This document shows positions 977 through 19,026 of a stretch of 21,118 nt of DNA, in pieces; position 1 is the first letter of the stretch; every line of letters begins with the position of its first letter. The DNA comes from a virus. Location of the stretch: positions 1-21,118 of IMG/VR virus record IMGVR_UViG_3300020469_000309; one strand, written 5' to 3'. Position numbers and translations under genes: made by a program. The notes under the pieces are model-generated. The model saw only the letters and a list, made by a program, of their open reading frames with translations. It was not told the origin of the DNA and did not search any database.

Positions 977-3103
977 CTAAGTATTATAAACGTTCGAGTT
1001 TGATGTTTTTCTCGAAATGTTTTTGTTACTGTTTGCCACGTCTTCCATTACTAGTTTAATTTCTGCAAGTAGTGTACTTATTCCATCCAGTTTATCTTGA
1101 TTGCTTCTTCCGGACGATGTAATTGCTCCACTCATGCTTGTATTCACTTCTCTAAATGCTCCTGCTAACTCTTCTAACTTTGTAGTATACAATGATAATT
1201 TGTCTTTGTCAAGATCATCTAGTGCTTCTGACATAGTTCTGGCATAAGTTTTCATTCCAGACACAGCGTTTGCCAAATTACCTGTGTTACCAACACCAGA
1301 AACCAATGCTAAAACTAAATTTTTGGTTCCATCAGCAACATCGGACAAGTTTTTGCCGTCTACATTGTTGAATGTTTGCAATCCTTTTCCAATTGCCGCA
1401 ATACCTAAACCAGCACCAACACCTGATAAACCTAACAAAGCACCAATACCTAAACCAGCAAACGCACCGCCTTTTGCCACTGCCGGACCTGCCGAACCTA
1501 ATGCTTTCATTCCGCCTATTGCCGCACCGCCTCCACCTAATGATGGAAGAAGTTTGCTCATAAATCCGCCAAGCAATTTAAATGTTCCTCCTAGTGCCAT
1601 TGAAGCAATTTTAAGTGCTCCTAATGCCAGTGCCGCCGAACCTAATCCTCCTACAAATTTTACAAGTGCATCATCAGATGCCATCAGAGGAGCCATTATA
1701 CTGTTTACAAGTTTTGCGAGACCACCTAAAGCAAAACCAAATGCTTGAAGGAATGGTAAAAGAACTGTGATCGCAAAGTTTTGAATATCTTTGAATGCAT
1801 CTTTGAATCCTAATATCTGATTTGATGTTGCCTTGATTGCCTCTGCCTGTTGTCTCTCTACCGCAGATCTTTGTGCACCAAATTTTGTCAAGTTAAACAA
1901 CTCAACATTTGCCGCAAGTGTTTGATTGCCAAGCACATCTAATAGTGCTCCTGTTCTTTGGAATCCACTACCCAAGTTTTGTGATATGCCTGCTGTCTGT
2001 CTGATGATTGCTTCAAATTGTTCCACAGAACCATTTCCAAAACTGACCTGTCTGGCAAAAGTGGCAATCTGAGGATTCAACCTTACTAAACTTTTTGCAA
2101 AGTCTGATATAGGTACACCGCCTGTTCCTATTAATTCTTTAAATGCATCTTGTGTTGCTTGAGGTAAACCTTGTAAACTTCCTAATATTTCTTGTACTCC
2201 CGGAACCATACTAGACTCAAGCGACTGTATAATACCTTTAATACGTTTTTCCATCATGTCTGCTTTAACGGCATCAGCAATTTGTTTTCTCTGTTTACCT
2301 GTGATGGATGAAAGTTGATCTAAATTCATTATGAAGTCTTGAGCACCAGCATTCAATTCTCTATTGGTCATAGTTTGTGCTCTACCTATTGACGTCTGTA
2401 TTTCTAAATAATCTGTAAGAAGATCTGTTGTTTCTTCAAAAGTCATTCCTAGACCGTTGGCTGTGGATCTAAATTCTCCTTGAAGCAATCTACTGATGTC
2501 AGTGAAACGTTCTGTACCACCTCTTACACTTCCGCCCAACAGTGCAAGTGTGTCTGCACTTTTACCTAGTGCGTTTGAAAATGCGTCCAACGATAGTGAT
2601 GCTCTCAGTGCCAATTCTCTTGTGGTGAATAATCCGTCACTGAACTGAATACCAACTTCTGATAGTTGTTTAAAATTGTCCACCTGTGTGTCTATCAATT
2701 TTGCAAGTTGTTCAACACTTTTCATCAAGATGAACATATACTTGTTTCCCGTGATGTCCGCCATAGTGGTCAAGGTTGATGCAAAACCTTCCACAGACAT
2801 TGAACCACTCATCAATTGGCTGGAGAACATTTTGGTACCTGTCCACAAAGAGTACATGCCTCTTTCGTTTTTTCTCAACTCCATTTCCCATTCGGCTAAT
2901 TGGTCAGTTACGTCTTCAATCTGTTTGGTATTTTCTTCTTTTGCTTTTTGTTCCTTTTTTTCTACAGGAGTTTTTGGTGCTGATGTTGATTTGCCTGTTA
3001 AGGCGTCGGCAAGGCGTTTCATTGTGGCTTCTGAGGCTGGCCCTAGTTGAGTCCGCCCATCCAATTCTTTCAGATATTTCAGTAGATCGTCTACTTCTGC
3101 CAT
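977..3103 (-). CDS. Probable tail tape-measure protein
   Basis: 708 aa, start ATG at 3103. It is probably the tail length ruler that fills the tube during assembly. Evidence is architectural, since I cannot recognise a named family by wording alone. There is a charged, Lys/Glu-rich N-terminus (residues 1-80), long amphipathic helical stretches, then a very hydrophobic Gly/Ala/Leu-rich region at about 443-575 (for example ALGALKIASMALGG and GIGALLGLSGVGAGLG), and a polar C-terminus. That pattern is typical of tape measures. At about 1.5 angstrom per residue it would suit a tail of roughly 100 nm. Its neighbours support the call: the gp26-like gene and its small partner, in the position of tail-assembly chaperones, lie just across the divergent intergenic region. 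A perfect late promoter box lies 69 nt upstream. Alternative: another large virion protein. T4 gp29 is the functional counterpart. Confidence 0.65.
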   Translation of the reverse strand: MAEVDDLLKYLKELDGRTQLGPASEATMKRLADALTGKSTSAPKTPVEKKEQKAKEENTKQIEDVTDQLAEWEMELRKNERGMYSLWTGTKMFSSQLMSGSMSVEGFASTLTTMADITGNKYMFILMKSVEQLAKLIDTQVDNFKQLSEVGIQFSDGLFTTRELALRASLSLDAFSNALGKSADTLALLGGSVRGGTERFTDISRLLQGEFRSTANGLGMTFEETTDLLTDYLEIQTSIGRAQTMTNRELNAGAQDFIMNLDQLSSITGKQRKQIADAVKADMMEKRIKGIIQSLESSMVPGVQEILGSLQGLPQATQDAFKELIGTGGVPISDFAKSLVRLNPQIATFARQVSFGNGSVEQFEAIIRQTAGISQNLGSGFQRTGALLDVLGNQTLAANVELFNLTKFGAQRSAVERQQAEAIKATSNQILGFKDAFKDIQNFAITVLLPFLQAFGFALGGLAKLVNSIMAPLMASDDALVKFVGGLGSAALALGALKIASMALGGTFKLLGGFMSKLLPSLGGGGAAIGGMKALGSAGPAVAKGGAFAGLGIGALLGLSGVGAGLGIAAIGKGLQTFNNVDGKNLSDVADGTKNLVLALVSGVGNTGNLANAVSGMKTYARTMSEALDDLDKDKLSLYTTKLEELAGAFREVNTSMSGAITSSGRSNQDKLDGISTLLAEIKLVMEDVANSNKNISRKTSNSNVYNT

Positions 3104-3189: not shown

Positions 3190-4062
3190 ATGACAGAACA
3201 AACAACAGGACAAAATACCAGTAATCCGTTACAGAAGTATTTTAGACAACCTAAATTACACGTTCGTTTACCGAGCGGTGGAAAATACTATCCACCAGGA
3301 TCATTGGATTTACCTGAATCAGGCGAGGTGGCAATCTATCCACTCACAGCCAAAGATGAATTGCTTTTAAAAACACCAGACAGTTTAATGAACGGCACAG
3401 CCACAGCAGATGTGATTAAAAGTTGTGTGCCACAAATCAAACAGCCTTGGTACATGCCAAGTTTAGATGTTGATGCATTGATCATGGCAATAAGAATTGC
3501 CACATACGGTGAAAACATGACAATCACAGTCAAAGTGCCCAACACAGGAGATGAAAAAGATTTCACAATAGATTTAAATTCTGTAATAGCACCTTTGATG
3601 TCAGCCACGTATGCAGACACAATCAAATTGGAAAACATGACAATCACTCTGCGTCCATTGATGTATTCAGAGTTTACCAAAGATGCACTACGCAGTTTTG
3701 AAGAACAAAGAGTGTACAACTTGGTGAATGATGACACAGTGCCCAACGAAGAAAAAATGGAAAGATTCAGACAAGCATTCAACAGGCTTACTGACTTGAC
3801 TGTGGAAACTGTGGCAAAAAGTATTGCAAAAATTGAATTGATGGATGGACAAGTTGTTAATGATCCAAAACATCTCTTGGAGTTCATGCAAAACACCAGC
3901 AAAGAATTTTACACAACAATTTTAGATCACATCACAGAACAGCGAGACAAGTTTGCTGTTAAACCATTCATTGCCAACACAACCAAAGACGAACAGGAGA
4001 AAGGTGCACCGGAAACATTTGAAGTTCCAATCACCTTTGACCAATCAAATTTTTTCGTATAA
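3190..4062 (+). CDS. 26: gp26-like baseplate/tail assembly protein
   Basis: 290 aa from ATG at 3190, chosen over the upstream 3154 start because AGGAG (3180-3184) sits 5 nt before it. The N-terminus carries LHVRLPSGGKYYPPGS, then YPLTAKDELLLKTPDSLMNG and a helical C-terminal half, the pattern of the T4 gp26 baseplate-hub family as found in marine T4-like phages. T4 gp26 itself is about 208 aa, so this version is longer, as is usual in this group. In T4, genes 26 and 51 are adjacent and act in hub assembly; here a small ORF in the -1 frame follows 11 bases after the stop. Near the 3' end, A AAT TTT at 4047-4053 is a canonical -1 slippery heptamer, so a longer fusion product is plausible. The gene is divergent from the tape-measure-like gene, which fits a chaperone role. 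Confidence 0.85.
   Translation: MTEQTTGQNTSNPLQKYFRQPKLHVRLPSGGKYYPPGSLDLPESGEVAIYPLTAKDELLLKTPDSLMNGTATADVIKSCVPQIKQPWYMPSLDVDALIMAIRIATYGENMTITVKVPNTGDEKDFTIDLNSVIAPLMSATYADTIKLENMTITLRPLMYSEFTKDALRSFEEQRVYNLVNDDTVPNEEKMERFRQAFNRLTDLTVETVAKSIAKIELMDGQVVNDPKHLLEFMQNTSKEFYTTILDHITEQRDKFAVKPFIANTTKDEQEKGAPETFEVPITFDQSNFFV
4047..4053 (+). other. Candidate -1 ribosomal frameshift site joining gp26 to the next ORF
   Basis: The gp26 frame reads TCA AAT TTT TTC GTA TAA. The bases AAATTTT form an X XXY YYZ heptamer in the correct phase. Slipping back one base after TTT gives TTT CGT ATA AGG ATA CTC TCC ATG, which is open and in frame with the ORF at 4074-4286. The -1 frame is closed upstream by TGA at 4038-4040, so the shift must happen within 4041-4062, exactly where the heptamer lies. 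The predicted fusion is about 365 aa. A 4-bp GTAT/ATAC stem (4057-4068) follows at once. Confidence 0.55.
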
Positions 4063-4073
4063 GGATACTCTCC

Positions 4074-4286
4074 ATGTCCGAACTCGAGGTGAAAAAGGAA
4101 ATCGCCAAGATGGAAGCGGACAAAAAACAATTCAGATTTGATCTAGTGCGTATATGCTGGTACATGAGAGGTGGAGTCACACTGAACGAAGCATACATGA
4201 GCACCTACGAAGAACGTGAAATGATTGGCAATTTGGTCAAAGAGAATTTGGAAACTGCCAAAAAAACTGGACAGCCTTTCTTTTAA
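4074..4286 (+). CDS. Small gp51-position protein, probable tail-assembly chaperone part
   Basis: 70 aa from ATG at 4074. AAGGA at 4061-4065 stands 8 nt before the ATG, so independent translation is possible. The protein is charged at its N-terminus, then RICWYMRGGVTLNEAYMS and a C-terminus ending in KKTGQPFF. I recall similar short ORFs behind gp26 in marine T4-like phages but cannot name a family domain. It occupies the place of T4 gene 51 (hub assembly, 249 aa), but is far shorter, so homology to gp51 is not shown. The frame is -1 relative to gp26 and reachable through the slippery heptamer at 4047-4053. That makes it a good candidate for the C-terminal extension of a gpG/gpGT-like chaperone pair that would serve the nearby tape-measure protein. 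Confidence 0.8.
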   Translation: MSELEVKKEIAKMEADKKQFRFDLVRICWYMRGGVTLNEAYMSTYEEREMIGNLVKENLETAKKTGQPFF

Positions 4287-4411: not shown

Positions 4412-4981
4412 ATGATAGTGTATACTCAGATACAAGACCCGGGACCGCTCGAAGAAGGAGCCAGGTGGTTGCCTTGTTTGCAATCACATCACGTGGAACA
4501 CACAGCCGCTAGAAAAGGTCCACTTTTAATCACACACATGGAAGCACTGAACAATTATCAACACAGCCTTGAACCATTCATGGAAGAAAACATCTACAGT
4601 GTGGGCAACAAGAGTTGGGACAGATTGAATGCCAAAGGTTTCAAACACATACATTGGTATGACACTGCCAAGGACGTGCCCATGGTGGCCAAAGACCTTG
4701 CGCCATTGACGTGGTTGTGTGGCGACAGCCACGCGAGAGATTTTTCAAATTATGACGGAGTGGATCAACTGCAAACCTATCACACAGAGTTGCACATTCC
4801 AAACTGCAACGATTTGGCAGAACAGAATCCTGCACATCTTTATGTGTATTCACCCAAGGTGTTGAATCATTTGCAAAGTATTAAAAAGTGGGAAGACACC
4901 ATTCTACACTACACACCATCATGCGATCCAGATCATCACAAATGGAAACGTATGGAATCATTCAATCCTAGCACGCCTTAA
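4412..4981 (+). CDS. HemD-like (uroporphyrinogen-III synthase fold) protein, putative
   Basis: 189 aa from ATG at 4412; no clear Shine-Dalgarno. The layout resembles uroporphyrinogen-III synthase, the enzyme that closes hydroxymethylbilane to uroporphyrinogen III in haem, sirohaem and cobalamin synthesis. A short N-terminal strand (MIVYTQIQDPGPLEEGA) is where HemD has its VTRP-type start. LLITHMEALNNY (38-49) lies where HemD has IFTSxxAV. NIYSVGNKSWDRLNAKGF (60-77) matches the family's VYAVGxxTAxALxxxGF block. LTWLCGDSHARDF (99-111) resembles the GDxxRxxL stretch before a second-half YHTE, and VYSPKVLNHL (145-154) the second-half FTSPxAV. It is shorter than usual (about 250 aa). Active-site residues of HemD are poorly conserved, so catalysis cannot be judged. 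The gene has its own sigma70-type promoter, convergent hairpins downstream, and more G/C than the virion genes, suggesting acquisition as an auxiliary metabolic gene. Family call is by eye only. Confidence 0.55.
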   Translation: MIVYTQIQDPGPLEEGARWLPCLQSHHVEHTAARKGPLLITHMEALNNYQHSLEPFMEENIYSVGNKSWDRLNAKGFKHIHWYDTAKDVPMVAKDLAPLTWLCGDSHARDFSNYDGVDQLQTYHTELHIPNCNDLAEQNPAHLYVYSPKVLNHLQSIKKWEDTILHYTPSCDPDHHKWKRMESFNPSTP

Positions 4982-5385: not shown

Positions 5386-5820
5386 TTATGCCTTGGGATT
5401 GTGTTTTTTCAATTCTTCTTTAAGGATTCGGGAACCACCAACTCTAACATTGATGATGCCATTGTAGTAATCATCGGATTCTAGTACTCGCCTTTCGAAT
5501 TGTTCACGAGCTTCGAGGTAACTCATTGCGCCTCTGCCACTGCATATGTACAGTATTTGCCTTGTAAAGTTTTTTTCGCCTAGTTTTTCTACGTCTTCCA
5601 GCAAATGATCCGACGAACCCCAATATTCGCGCCAGTCAGATTCAACCTTGCTTCTACGTTTGTTTATCCTGCCCTTGAGAGGCGGACGTGTCTTCTTGAA
5701 TTTCGCCAGTTTTTTGCCCACGTACATCTTACCGTTGGTTGTGTTTGTGATCAAATACACAAATCCTTCACAGTGTTCTGGCAATGTCTCTATGATTTTA
5801 CCTTGATAAGTCCATGGCAT
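5386..5820 (-). CDS. GIY-YIG family endonuclease (Seg-like)
   Basis: 144 aa, ATG at 5820 on the minus strand. GIY-YIG nucleases cut DNA through a compact domain with an N-terminal GIY and YIG pair and a catalytic Glu. Here GFVYLIT (19-25) and MYVGKK (32-37) are the two strand motifs, a basic stretch KGRINKRRSKVESDW (49-63) follows, and YLEAREQF (101-108) supplies the probable metal-binding Glu104. Proteins starting MPWTYQGK with this layout are frequent in marine T4-like phages and are often listed as Seg-like homing endonucleases. It is free-standing: no intron or interrupted gene is visible next to it. The start lacks a clear Shine-Dalgarno. Composition is richer in G/C than the structural genes. 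It may act in homing or host DNA breakdown; which one is not shown. Confidence 0.85.
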   Translation of the reverse strand: MPWTYQGKIIETLPEHCEGFVYLITNTTNGKMYVGKKLAKFKKTRPPLKGRINKRRSKVESDWREYWGSSDHLLEDVEKLGEKNFTRQILYICSGRGAMSYLEAREQFERRVLESDDYYNGIINVRVGGSRILKEELKKHNPKA

Positions 5821-15540: not shown

Positions 15541-18500
15541 ATGTCCACAACACAAAGACAAAATAGATTACTACTTGCAGAGGATTGGAAACGCATATAC
15601 CAAAGTTTCCGGAACGCTGAATTCCAAAGTTATGACTTTGATAACTTAAGAAGAGTCATGATTGCCTACCTACGTGAAAACTATCCTGAAGATTTCAATG
15701 ACTACATTGAAAGTTCAGAGTATCTAGCATTGATTGATTTAATAGCATTCCTTGGGCAAAATTTATCTTACAGAATAGATTTGAATGCAAGAGAAAATTT
15801 CCTAGAACTTGCAGATAGAAGAGAATCAGTTTTAAGACTTGCACGTTTGTTAAGTTACAATGCAACAAGAAATCAATGTGCTAATGGCTTGTTGAAAGTT
15901 GTTGCAGTATCTACAACTGAAAACGTTATTGACAGTAATAATCTAGATTTAGGAAATGCAGAAATCAGTTGGGCAGATACATCTAATGCAGATTGGTATG
16001 AGCAATTCATAAAAGTAATGAATGCGGCATTTGGCCCTAACACAAAGTTTGGCAAACCGGTTGCTTCAGACACAGTGAATGGTATTTTGACAAGACAATA
16101 CAATGTTCAATCTTCTGCAACAGACATTCCAATTTTTGCATTTAGCAAAAGTGTAAATGGAAGAAATTTTGATTTTGAAATCACAAGTGCAGAAGTGCTT
16201 GATGCTTCTATAAATGAACATGCACCATTACCAGGAAGAAAATTTGGATTAATTCACAGAGATGACGGACAAGGAGCGTCCAGTGCCAACACAGGATTTT
16301 TTGTACATTTTAGACAAGGGTTTTTAGATCAAGGCGAATTCAATATCAGTTTGCCAACGCCTAACCAGTCTGTGAACCTTGATGCTAGAAATGTAAACAA
16401 CACAGATGTTTGGCTATATCAATTAGACGAAACAGGTGAAGAATTAAACCAATGGACAAAATTAGATTCCATGGTAGGCAATAACATAATTTACAATTCA
16501 TTGAATAAAAATAACAGAACAACTTACAGTGTTACAACCAAAACAGATGATAGAATAAGTTTACAATTTTCCGATGGCGTATTTGGTGATTTGCCACAAG
16601 GCTCATATAGAGTTTACTACAGAACTTCAGCCAATTTAGCATTTTCAATACCACCAACTGAAATGCAAAATATTCAAATAGATATTCCATACGTATCTGC
16701 AACAGGCAAATCAGAAACATTAAGTTTTGTTTGCAGTTTGCAATACACAGTTGATAACAGCACAACAACTGAAACTAACGCAAACATCAAAGTAAATGCT
16801 CCTACTTCTTTCTACACACAAAATAGAATGATTACAGGAGAAGATTACAATGTTGCACCATTAGGAAAAAATAGAGAAATTGTAAAAGTAAAAAGCGTCA
16901 ACAGAGTAAGTGCAGGCATATCCAAATATTTTGATTTTGTAGATGCAACAGGCACAAGCAGTGACGTCAATGTGTACGGCAATGATGGTATTGTGTACAG
17001 AGAATTAATTAATGATCTTAACACATTTAATTTTGGAACACGAACAGATATTGAAGGTGTGATCATCAATAAGATAGAGCCAGTATTAAGTGAAAACAGA
17101 TTGTTCAATTACTTTATTAATAATTTTCCAGACTTATTACTAGATGATTTGAATGCAAGTTTTGTACAGTCTACAAAAGGAAACAATTTAAGCACAGGTC
17201 TTTTGCAAGATCCAGACGGTTTGCAATATTCCGCTGGACCAACAACAGCAAGTCAATTGAAATACATTGAAACAGGAGCATTGTGTAAATTTGAAGCACC
17301 TAGTGGCTTTCATTTTATGGCTGACGGAACATTGATGTCAGGCACAGCAGATCATCCAGGTAGCAGTGACTACATTTGGACTAGTGTTGTCAGTGTGATT
17401 GGTGATGGTAAAACTGTGCAAACAGATGGTTCTGGACCTATTGCATTCAGCGATGTTGTACCAACAGGAGCAATATTAAAAAAAATTAAATCAAAATTTA
17501 CAAAATTTTTAAGTGCAGGTTTAAAAAATGATATCATAGAACAAATATTTGCTTACAACACATTTGGTTTAAGATTTGACCAAGACAGCAGAACATGGAA
17601 ACTTATTAAAGAAACAAACTTAAACATCTATGGCGACTTCAACATTGGTAAGAGCGGTGATGACAGTAATCAAAGATTGGACTCTAGTTGGTTATTGTTG
17701 TTTACAAACAATGGTGAAACGTACACAATGGAAAACAGAGGTATGAGGTATGTGTTCGAATCAGACAAAGAAATTAGATTTTTCTATGATTCAAGCAATC
17801 AAAACTACAATCCTACAACTGGTAAAACACAAAAAGACAGTGTTACAGTTCTAAGCATTAATACCAAACCTAACACAAACATTCCAATGACGACTGATGT
17901 TTCATTTTCAGGAGTTAAAGAATTTAGAGAGACAAGTGGTTATGTCAACAGTAAAAAATTAGAAGTATCTCTTTTTGACAGTGATCAAGATGGTTTTATA
18001 GATAATCCTGAAAGTTTTGAACTTGTTGTTGACACAACAAAATTTGTTTTTCAAAAAATTAACGAATTTAATGATGGCAGTAATGAAGTTAATTACGTAG
18101 ATGCTTCAAATGAAAAAATTGTTACAGTACAAAGCACAAACAGTATAGCACCTTACAGCACTTATGAAGATGGTACAATATTATACATTGTGGACACAGA
18201 TTCTTTTAAAAGCATTGACAAAGTTAATAATGTATTGGTTAATAATACATCTTATGTTGCTAAAACAGGAAGAGGTGGATTAAAATTCCATTATGTGCAT
18301 TCTGCAGACAGCAATTCAAGAATAGATCCAAGTACAAGCAACATAATAGATTTATATTTGTTATCAAGAACTTATGACAGATCATTTAGATTATGGTTGT
18401 CTGGTGCTAGTGCAACACAACCTAAAACTCCAAGTGCAGACAGTCTGTACAAAAATTATGGCGGAGAATTAGATAAAATTAAAAGTATTTCAGATGAATT

Positions 18501-19026
18501 AGTTTACCATCCTGTATCTTACAAAGTATTGTTTGGTTCAAAAGCAGATACTTCATTACAGGCAACTTTTAAAATTGTAAAAAATACAGAACAAGTTGTC
18601 AATGATAGCGAATTGAAAGTTCAAGTGATACAGGCTATTAACCAATTCTTTGCATTAGAAAATTGGGAATTTGGTGACACTTTTTATTTTTCAGAACTGA
18701 GTACATACGTAATGAACATTTTAGCGCCTGATCTTGCAACTTTTGTAATTGTTCCTAATACTGCAAGCCAAGGCTTTGGAAGTTTGTTTGAAATCAAATC
18801 AGAAAGCAATGAAATTTTTATAAGTGGAGCAACTGTAGATAACGTTGCAGTAATAGATGCCATTACTGCAAGTAAATTAAGAGCCTCGGGCGAAGTTGTA
18901 ACTACTTTTGGTACTGATCAAACCATAGTAACAAGTTCAAACACAACAACATCAAGTTCTTCAAGTTCTTCAAGTTCTTCAAGCAGTAGCGGAGGTTCTG
19001 GATCTTCTGGAGGCTCAGGTTACTAA
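15541..19026 (+). CDS. 6: gp6 baseplate wedge protein, long form with Ser-rich tail
   Basis: 1161 aa; T4 gp6 is 660. gp6 forms the inner iris of the baseplate wedge. The N-terminus has the family block: VMIAYLRENYPEDFNDYIE, SSEYLALIDLIAFLGQNLSY, RIDLNARENFLELADRRES and VLRLARLLSYNATRN (residues about 38-112). Near the C-terminus come VQVIQAINQFFALENWEFGD, TFYFSELSTYVMNIL and ATFVIVPNTASQGFGSLFEI, also typical. The middle is longer than in T4. The last 35 residues are a Thr/Ser/Gly run (13 Ser in a row, then GGSGSSGGSGY) coded by a 9-base repeat, a flexible tail not expected for the fold. A late-type box stands before the gene. The next gene starts two bases after the stop. Confidence 0.93.
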   Translation: MSTTQRQNRLLLAEDWKRIYQSFRNAEFQSYDFDNLRRVMIAYLRENYPEDFNDYIESSEYLALIDLIAFLGQNLSYRIDLNARENFLELADRRESVLRLARLLSYNATRNQCANGLLKVVAVSTTENVIDSNNLDLGNAEISWADTSNADWYEQFIKVMNAAFGPNTKFGKPVASDTVNGILTRQYNVQSSATDIPIFAFSKSVNGRNFDFEITSAEVLDASINEHAPLPGRKFGLIHRDDGQGASSANTGFFVHFRQGFLDQGEFNISLPTPNQSVNLDARNVNNTDVWLYQLDETGEELNQWTKLDSMVGNNIIYNSLNKNNRTTYSVTTKTDDRISLQFSDGVFGDLPQGSYRVYYRTSANLAFSIPPTEMQNIQIDIPYVSATGKSETLSFVCSLQYTVDNSTTTETNANIKVNAPTSFYTQNRMITGEDYNVAPLGKNREIVKVKSVNRVSAGISKYFDFVDATGTSSDVNVYGNDGIVYRELINDLNTFNFGTRTDIEGVIINKIEPVLSENRLFNYFINNFPDLLLDDLNASFVQSTKGNNLSTGLLQDPDGLQYSAGPTTASQLKYIETGALCKFEAPSGFHFMADGTLMSGTADHPGSSDYIWTSVVSVIGDGKTVQTDGSGPIAFSDVVPTGAILKKIKSKFTKFLSAGLKNDIIEQIFAYNTFGLRFDQDSRTWKLIKETNLNIYGDFNIGKSGDDSNQRLDSSWLLLFTNNGETYTMENRGMRYVFESDKEIRFFYDSSNQNYNPTTGKTQKDSVTVLSINTKPNTNIPMTTDVSFSGVKEFRETSGYVNSKKLEVSLFDSDQDGFIDNPESFELVVDTTKFVFQKINEFNDGSNEVNYVDASNEKIVTVQSTNSIAPYSTYEDGTILYIVDTDSFKSIDKVNNVLVNNTSYVAKTGRGGLKFHYVHSADSNSRIDPSTSNIIDLYLLSRTYDRSFRLWLSGASATQPKTPSADSLYKNYGGELDKIKSISDELVYHPVSYKVLFGSKADTSLQATFKIVKNTEQVVNDSELKVQVIQAINQFFALENWEFGDTFYFSELSTYVMNILAPDLATFVIVPNTASQGFGSLFEIKSESNEIFISGATVDNVAVIDAITASKLRASGEVVTTFGTDQTIVTSSNTTTSSSSSSSSSSSSSGGSGSSGGSGY
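18952..18987 (+). repeat. 9-bp microsatellite coding poly-Ser
   Basis: TCAAGTTCT is repeated three times exactly (18952-18978), followed by a diverged copy TCAAGCAGT. All code Ser-Ser-Ser. Whole units can be gained or lost in frame, so tail length may vary among relatives. Confidence 0.85.

Follow-up and report, generated by a model that had tools for sequence, protein, structure and literature searches.

A conserved T TTT TTC heptamer and a predicted −1 frameshift joining gp26 to its small downstream open reading frame in jumbo myophages

The window analysed here, a 21-kb viral record (IMG/VR IMGVR_UViG_3300020469_000309, 21,118 nucleotides), contains a gene for a gp26-type protein followed by a small open reading frame (ORF). 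Judged from sequence comparison, the two are very probably one gene, in which a programmed −1 ribosomal frameshift would give rise to a short and a long tail-assembly chaperone. An in-phase T TTT TTC heptamer was found near the gp26 stop in 95 of 95 loci, which comprised the window, 79 viral contigs that reach the stop (of 80 with relatives) and 15 isolate genomes, and which represented 73 distinct sequences; XacN1 and CM1 carried the variant T TTT TTT. In the relatives from both contigs and isolates, the −1 frame was found to be open into an extension of 71–82 codons.

The gp26 product of the window matched PF12322 with 55.4 bits over residues 27–258 in a Pfam profile search (curated cut-off 24.5 bits), and it also matched phrog_150 (baseplate hub). 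Nothing relevant was matched in the NCBIfam search, and the gp26 profile found no relative among PDB sequences. The named closest relatives were the jumbo myophages Phosso, PA5oct, Atu_ph07, GAP32, RaK2 and 121Q. The start at 3190 was picked by aligning relatives, the ORF itself being open from 3154, and the 3′ end of the gene reads TCA AAT TTT TTC GTA TAA. A first reading of this DNA, made without database searches (the sequence-only reading), had proposed a slippery A AAT TTT in phase near the gp26 stop, a −1 path open into the next ORF and a −1 frame closed shortly upstream. All three features of this layout were recovered: A AAT TTT is present at 4047–4053 ahead of the stop at 4060–4062, the −1 frame is closed by TGA at 4038–4040, and it is then open from 4041 up to TAA at 4284–4286, the small ORF (4074–4286, with ATG start) lying in this frame. 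The predicted fusion junction is ...QSNFF-RIRILSMSELEV..., and the fusion would have a total of 365 amino acids.

The heptamer alone occurs at about chance frequency (TTTTTTC was observed 19 times in the window, compared to 16.9 expected from shuffling), and it is its conservation in all 95 loci that lifts it above chance. Among 72 representatives, the first phenylalanine codon was TTT in 72 and the second was TTC in 70, whereas the share of TTT at three other conserved phenylalanine columns was 64–71%. The codon preceding TTT TTC was shown to vary among relatives (AAT, AGT, CAT, CGT, GAT, TAT, GCT), which disrupts A AAT TTT in many of them. A AAT TTT was therefore rejected as the functional heptamer: the sequence-only reading was right in placing an in-phase heptamer here, but the conserved one is T TTT TTC. 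The heptamer and the open −1 frame persisted throughout the relatives, at protein identities down to about 27–30%, and a stop between the two frames, which would have spoken against a fusion, was found in no relative examined. Almost all marine relatives have an extension exactly as long as that of the window. The 0 frame of the isolates continues 1–11 codons beyond the heptamer before its stop, and the length and pattern of the −1 extension are retained. One contig (L059) contained an early stop in the −1 frame, 50 nucleotides after the gp26 stop; it shares its junction with L058, which has no such stop, and the early stop is probably a sequencing or assembly error.

The −1 extension was shown to be under purifying selection. 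In 56 marine sequences, the 225 nucleotides after the gp26 stop contained no stops in the −1 frame compared to 2–13 in each other frame, and the median pairwise ratio of nonsynonymous to synonymous substitution rates (dN/dS) was 0.12 in the −1 frame compared to 1.26 and 1.75 in the other two. At the protein level, the alignment showed a pattern, FFRxxLL, that is conserved across the frame change. An AlphaFold model of gp26 had a predicted local distance difference test score (pLDDT) of 85, and the extension modelled alone gave four helices with a pLDDT of 86.5. A useful PDB match to the extension fold was absent, only three chains being available for comparison.

From the site, its conservation and the constraint downstream of it we infer the following scheme. 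Most ribosomes would read gp26 to the stop ending at 4062 and produce the short chaperone of 290 amino acids, whereas a minority would shift one base backwards at T TTT TTC (4050–4056), the phenylalanine tRNAs in the P-site and A-site re-pairing in the −1 frame. The slipped ribosomes would bypass the stop and produce the long form, whose C-terminal domain is conserved and helical. If the analogy with gpG and gpGT of phage lambda holds, the common domain may form a coat on the tape-measure protein, recruitment of tail-tube subunits may fall to the rare C-terminal domain, and neither form would be needed in the finished virion.

Such a short/long pair of tail-assembly chaperones is the most likely function of gp26 and its extension by this analogy, considering the literature on T4-family chaperones, an adjoining probable tape-measure gene and a comparison of the gp26 model with the HK97 chaperone. 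The product of the adjoining gene at 977–3103 showed similarity to RaK2 ORF088, noted as tape-measure-like (blastp E 9e-9), and to a SNUABM_47 protein annotated 'putative tape measure protein' (E 3e-7), and the genes so annotated in RaK2 and SNUABM_47 occupy the same position in their genomes; on these annotations it is probably the tape-measure gene. The gp26 model aligned with the HK97 tail-assembly chaperone (2ob9_A, HK97 gp14) over 101 of 107 residues with a middling Z of 6.2, at rank 11 among unrelated chains, an alignment that is suggestive only. That gp26- and gp51-type 'hub' proteins correspond to the gpG/gpGT system, as had been suggested in the sequence-only reading, is supported by the short/long layout next to the probable tape-measure gene.

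Some results weigh against a frameshifted chaperone gene. Consensus folding of the jumbo and cyanophage groups detected no conserved downstream RNA structure (pseudoknots were not modelled), and folding of the individual sequences showed a mild mean excess downstream, with z about −1.8 at best. Programmed −1 sites often, though not always, come with a stimulatory RNA structure or a Shine-Dalgarno sequence upstream. A Foldseek search of the gp26 model against PDB gave no significant match. Besides, gp26 of phage CBB is annotated as 'structural protein', which would be unusual for a chaperone absent from virions, and the window has a TAAGGA followed by ATG, which could additionally yield some of the C-terminal domain in free form.

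The annotation of CBB, together with the historical annotation in T4 and genetic studies that placed gp26 in the hub (PMC3004832), would also fit a different function: the fusion would still be produced, but gp26 would truly belong to the baseplate hub, with the long form as a rare variant of it. We consider this unlikely, since the same source also counts gp26 and gp51 among the hub assembly chaperones, with gp51 absent from the particle (PMC3004832), gp26 of PA5oct lacks the note on electrospray ionization tandem mass spectrometry (ESI-MS/MS) that its neighbouring virion proteins have, and the short/long layout adjoining the tape measure fits gpG/gpGT.

It is highly improbable that the small ORF is a separate gene that is never fused to gp26 and is translated either from a start codon of its own or by ribosomes re-initiating past the gp26 stop. 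Many public records of isolates annotate the small coding sequence on its own, and the window, like its closest relatives, has an ATG that starts 12 nucleotides past the gp26 stop codon and is preceded by TAAGGA at a distance of 8 nucleotides. An ATG at +14 relative to the first stop-codon base was also found in L002–L005, L020, L027, L028 and L044 (with TAAGAA in place of TAAGGA in L004), but it was missing in most relatives, and 4 of the 73 distinct sequences (L060, L071, L072 and PA5oct) contained no ATG, GTG or TTG in the first approximately 25 codons of the −1 path. A strong ribosome site of its own, which the sequence-only reading had named as a reason to doubt the fusion, is thus not conserved. 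In addition, the −1 protein is conserved from the slip site (FFRxxLL), upstream of any start, the codons of T TTT TTC are frozen, and T4 gp51 has the same domain fused to a gp26-like domain. Slippage of RNA polymerase on the T run, making some mRNAs one base longer or shorter and so joining the frames, is likewise very improbable: the conserved element is indeed a homopolymer of six T (seven in XacN1 and CM1), but six T is short for RNA-polymerase slippage and the phase of the run is in every case that of a tandem-slip heptamer, like classical −1 ribosomal sites.

The frameshift layout was found to extend beyond the jumbo group. All 80 cyanophage-type loci retrieved with Syn9 gp26 as query contained T TTT TTC with the −1 frame open, the extensions of two of them (L162 and L171) being short and cut early. 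The Syn9 junction reads GCT TCT TTT TTC GGG TAG, and Syn9 gp13 (47 amino acids, annotated 'T4 gp51-like', L116:7248-7391) was shown to be the tail of the −1 frame. GAT TTT TTC with an open −1 frame was found in KVP40, Rhizobium phage IC12, Stenotrophomonas phage YB07 and Citrobacter phage Ci1, and in the KVP40 record the small ORF is noted to be similar to the C-terminal end of T4 gp51. Both Syn9 gp13 and KVP40.0327 (L197:3322-3489) are annotated as baseplate hub assembly catalyst (gp51-like), and they look like gp26 −1 extensions, not like independent genes.

Contrary to what the sequence-only reading had assumed, T4 genes 26 and 51 are divergently oriented and do not have the order of the window; gene 26 followed by a small '51' is the arrangement in Syn9 and KVP40. 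Direct BLAST searches of T4 gp26 and gp51 against the window proteins gave no match, and profiles were therefore needed. T4 gp26 and gp51 both matched phrog_150 and matched each other (blastp E 1.7e-6); the two genes are paralogues. The fusion of the window group aligned with the gp51 profile through the extension (P 2.7e-5), whereas the alignment with T4 gp26 ended at the slip position; the extension of the window group alone matched gp51 weakly (P 0.0014). For the cyanophages, both the fusion (P 1.3e-16) and the extension alone (P 4e-9) matched gp51, and reversed controls failed in both cases. A gp26 that ends at the slip position and a gp51 that runs through the extension are what the replacement of a single frameshifted gene by two genes would be expected to leave.

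The number of PF12322 genes per phage was two in all five split-gene T4-type phages and one in the 15 of 15 frameshift-type phages with a match; in SCTP-2, a PF12322 match was below detection. The T TTT TTC heptamer was absent from the 3′ ends of T4-type gp26 genes. The tree built from the common domain placed the split genes together, apart from all frameshift-type rows (99/97), and the jumbo group and the cyanophage group were each united. Since the root of this tree is not fixed, we infer the direction of change between the frameshift and two genes. The T TTT TTC frameshift is likely to be ancestral across the gp26/gp51 family, T4 genes 26 and 51 having originated from a duplication that took its place, whereas the small 'gp51' of cyanophages and KVP40 would be extensions and not genes. 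In the T4 subgroup, the short form would then have been retained by gene 26 and the long form by gene 51. In a T4-like contig (L105), a gp51-like frame from 2001 stops after 120 amino acids, though the match covers query residues 1–247; a frame break or error is possible.

The lambda gpG/gpGT pair was reportedly described, along with the conservation of the G-T frameshift among long-tailed phages, by Levin in 1993 and Xu in 2004. As in the lambda system, the predicted −1 shift of the window falls close to the 3′ end of a short tail-chaperone-type gene, the −1 frame encodes a C-terminal extension and a probable tape-measure gene lies nearby. It differs in the protein family (PF12322), in the heptamer (T TTT TTC) and in the tape-measure gene, which is divergent and not downstream. 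A review of the conserved frameshift names T4 as an exception (PMC5009743). As related in passages of PMC10885494 and PMC12846349, Vladimirov, Gautam and Davidson (2022) described the tail-assembly chaperones of T4-like phages as a short gene and a long fusion gene, and slippery sequences of poly-T type in the TAC-N genes of these phages are also reported in a passage of PMC12846349. The proposal of the sequence-only reading that gp26 and gp51 are chaperones is supported, but according to these passages the link in T4-like phages was already published in 2022. Unlike the short gene plus fusion gene so described, the jumbo-phage group of the window would obtain both forms from one gene by frameshifting. 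In Vandenendeviridae and Andersonviridae, the tail-assembly chaperone has a conserved −1 site with a poly-T core (GTTTTT) and more than 200 bp of open −1 frame, and the extension is usually annotated as a separate hypothetical protein (PMC12846349). The group of the window shares the poly-T −1 site, the long open −1 frame and the separate annotation with these phages, which belong to other families with another reported motif; the likeness described here is one of layout.

The mechanism is a classical one, and public annotations of this phage group overlook the frameshift: none of 19 annotated frameshift-type isolate records join the two frames. Existing annotations would be corrected in that the two frames belong together. 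With the frameshift proposed here, the jumbo myophages RaK2, 121Q, PA5oct, GAP32, Atu_ph07 and their marine relatives would join the common rule of frameshifted tail chaperones, which supports that T4 gp26 and gp51 are a split version of one frameshifted gene. A junction peptide, ...FF-R..., is directly predicted from the 0/−1 frame pair in culturable phages.

Table 1. Positions of the predicted frameshift gene, its elements and the divergent neighbour in the window
Feature	Position	Strand	Remarks
Probable tape-measure protein, 708 amino acids	977–3103	−	Divergent neighbour of gp26; blastp matches to RaK2 and SNUABM_47
gp26-type protein, short form	3190–4062	+	0 frame, 290 amino acids; PF12322 T4_baseplate, phrog_150 baseplate hub; probable tail-assembly chaperone TAC-N
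A AAT TTT, heptamer of the sequence-only reading	4047–4053	+	In phase; overlaps T TTT TTC; itself not conserved
Putative slippery heptamer T TTT TTC	4050–4056	+	In phase with gp26; tandem −1 slip would be to TTT TTT
Predicted C-terminal extension, −1 frame	4056–4286	+	76 amino acids plus stop; would be read only after slippage
0-frame stop TAA	4060–4062	+	One codon past the heptamer
TAAGGA, then ATG at 4074	4060–4076	+	Possible own start of the small ORF; window and few relatives

Directly after the chaperone gene, the window contains an ORF of 189 amino acids (4412–4981, + strand) that matched nothing in Pfam and nothing significantly in PHROG. A little downstream of gp26, a SegE-like GIY-YIG endonuclease gene was found (5386–5820, − strand; PF19835, 120.6 bits), in the place of which isolate relatives often have endonuclease VII. 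An ORF of 1161 amino acids (15541–19026, + strand) was shown to encode a C-terminus consisting of a long serine/glycine-rich run.
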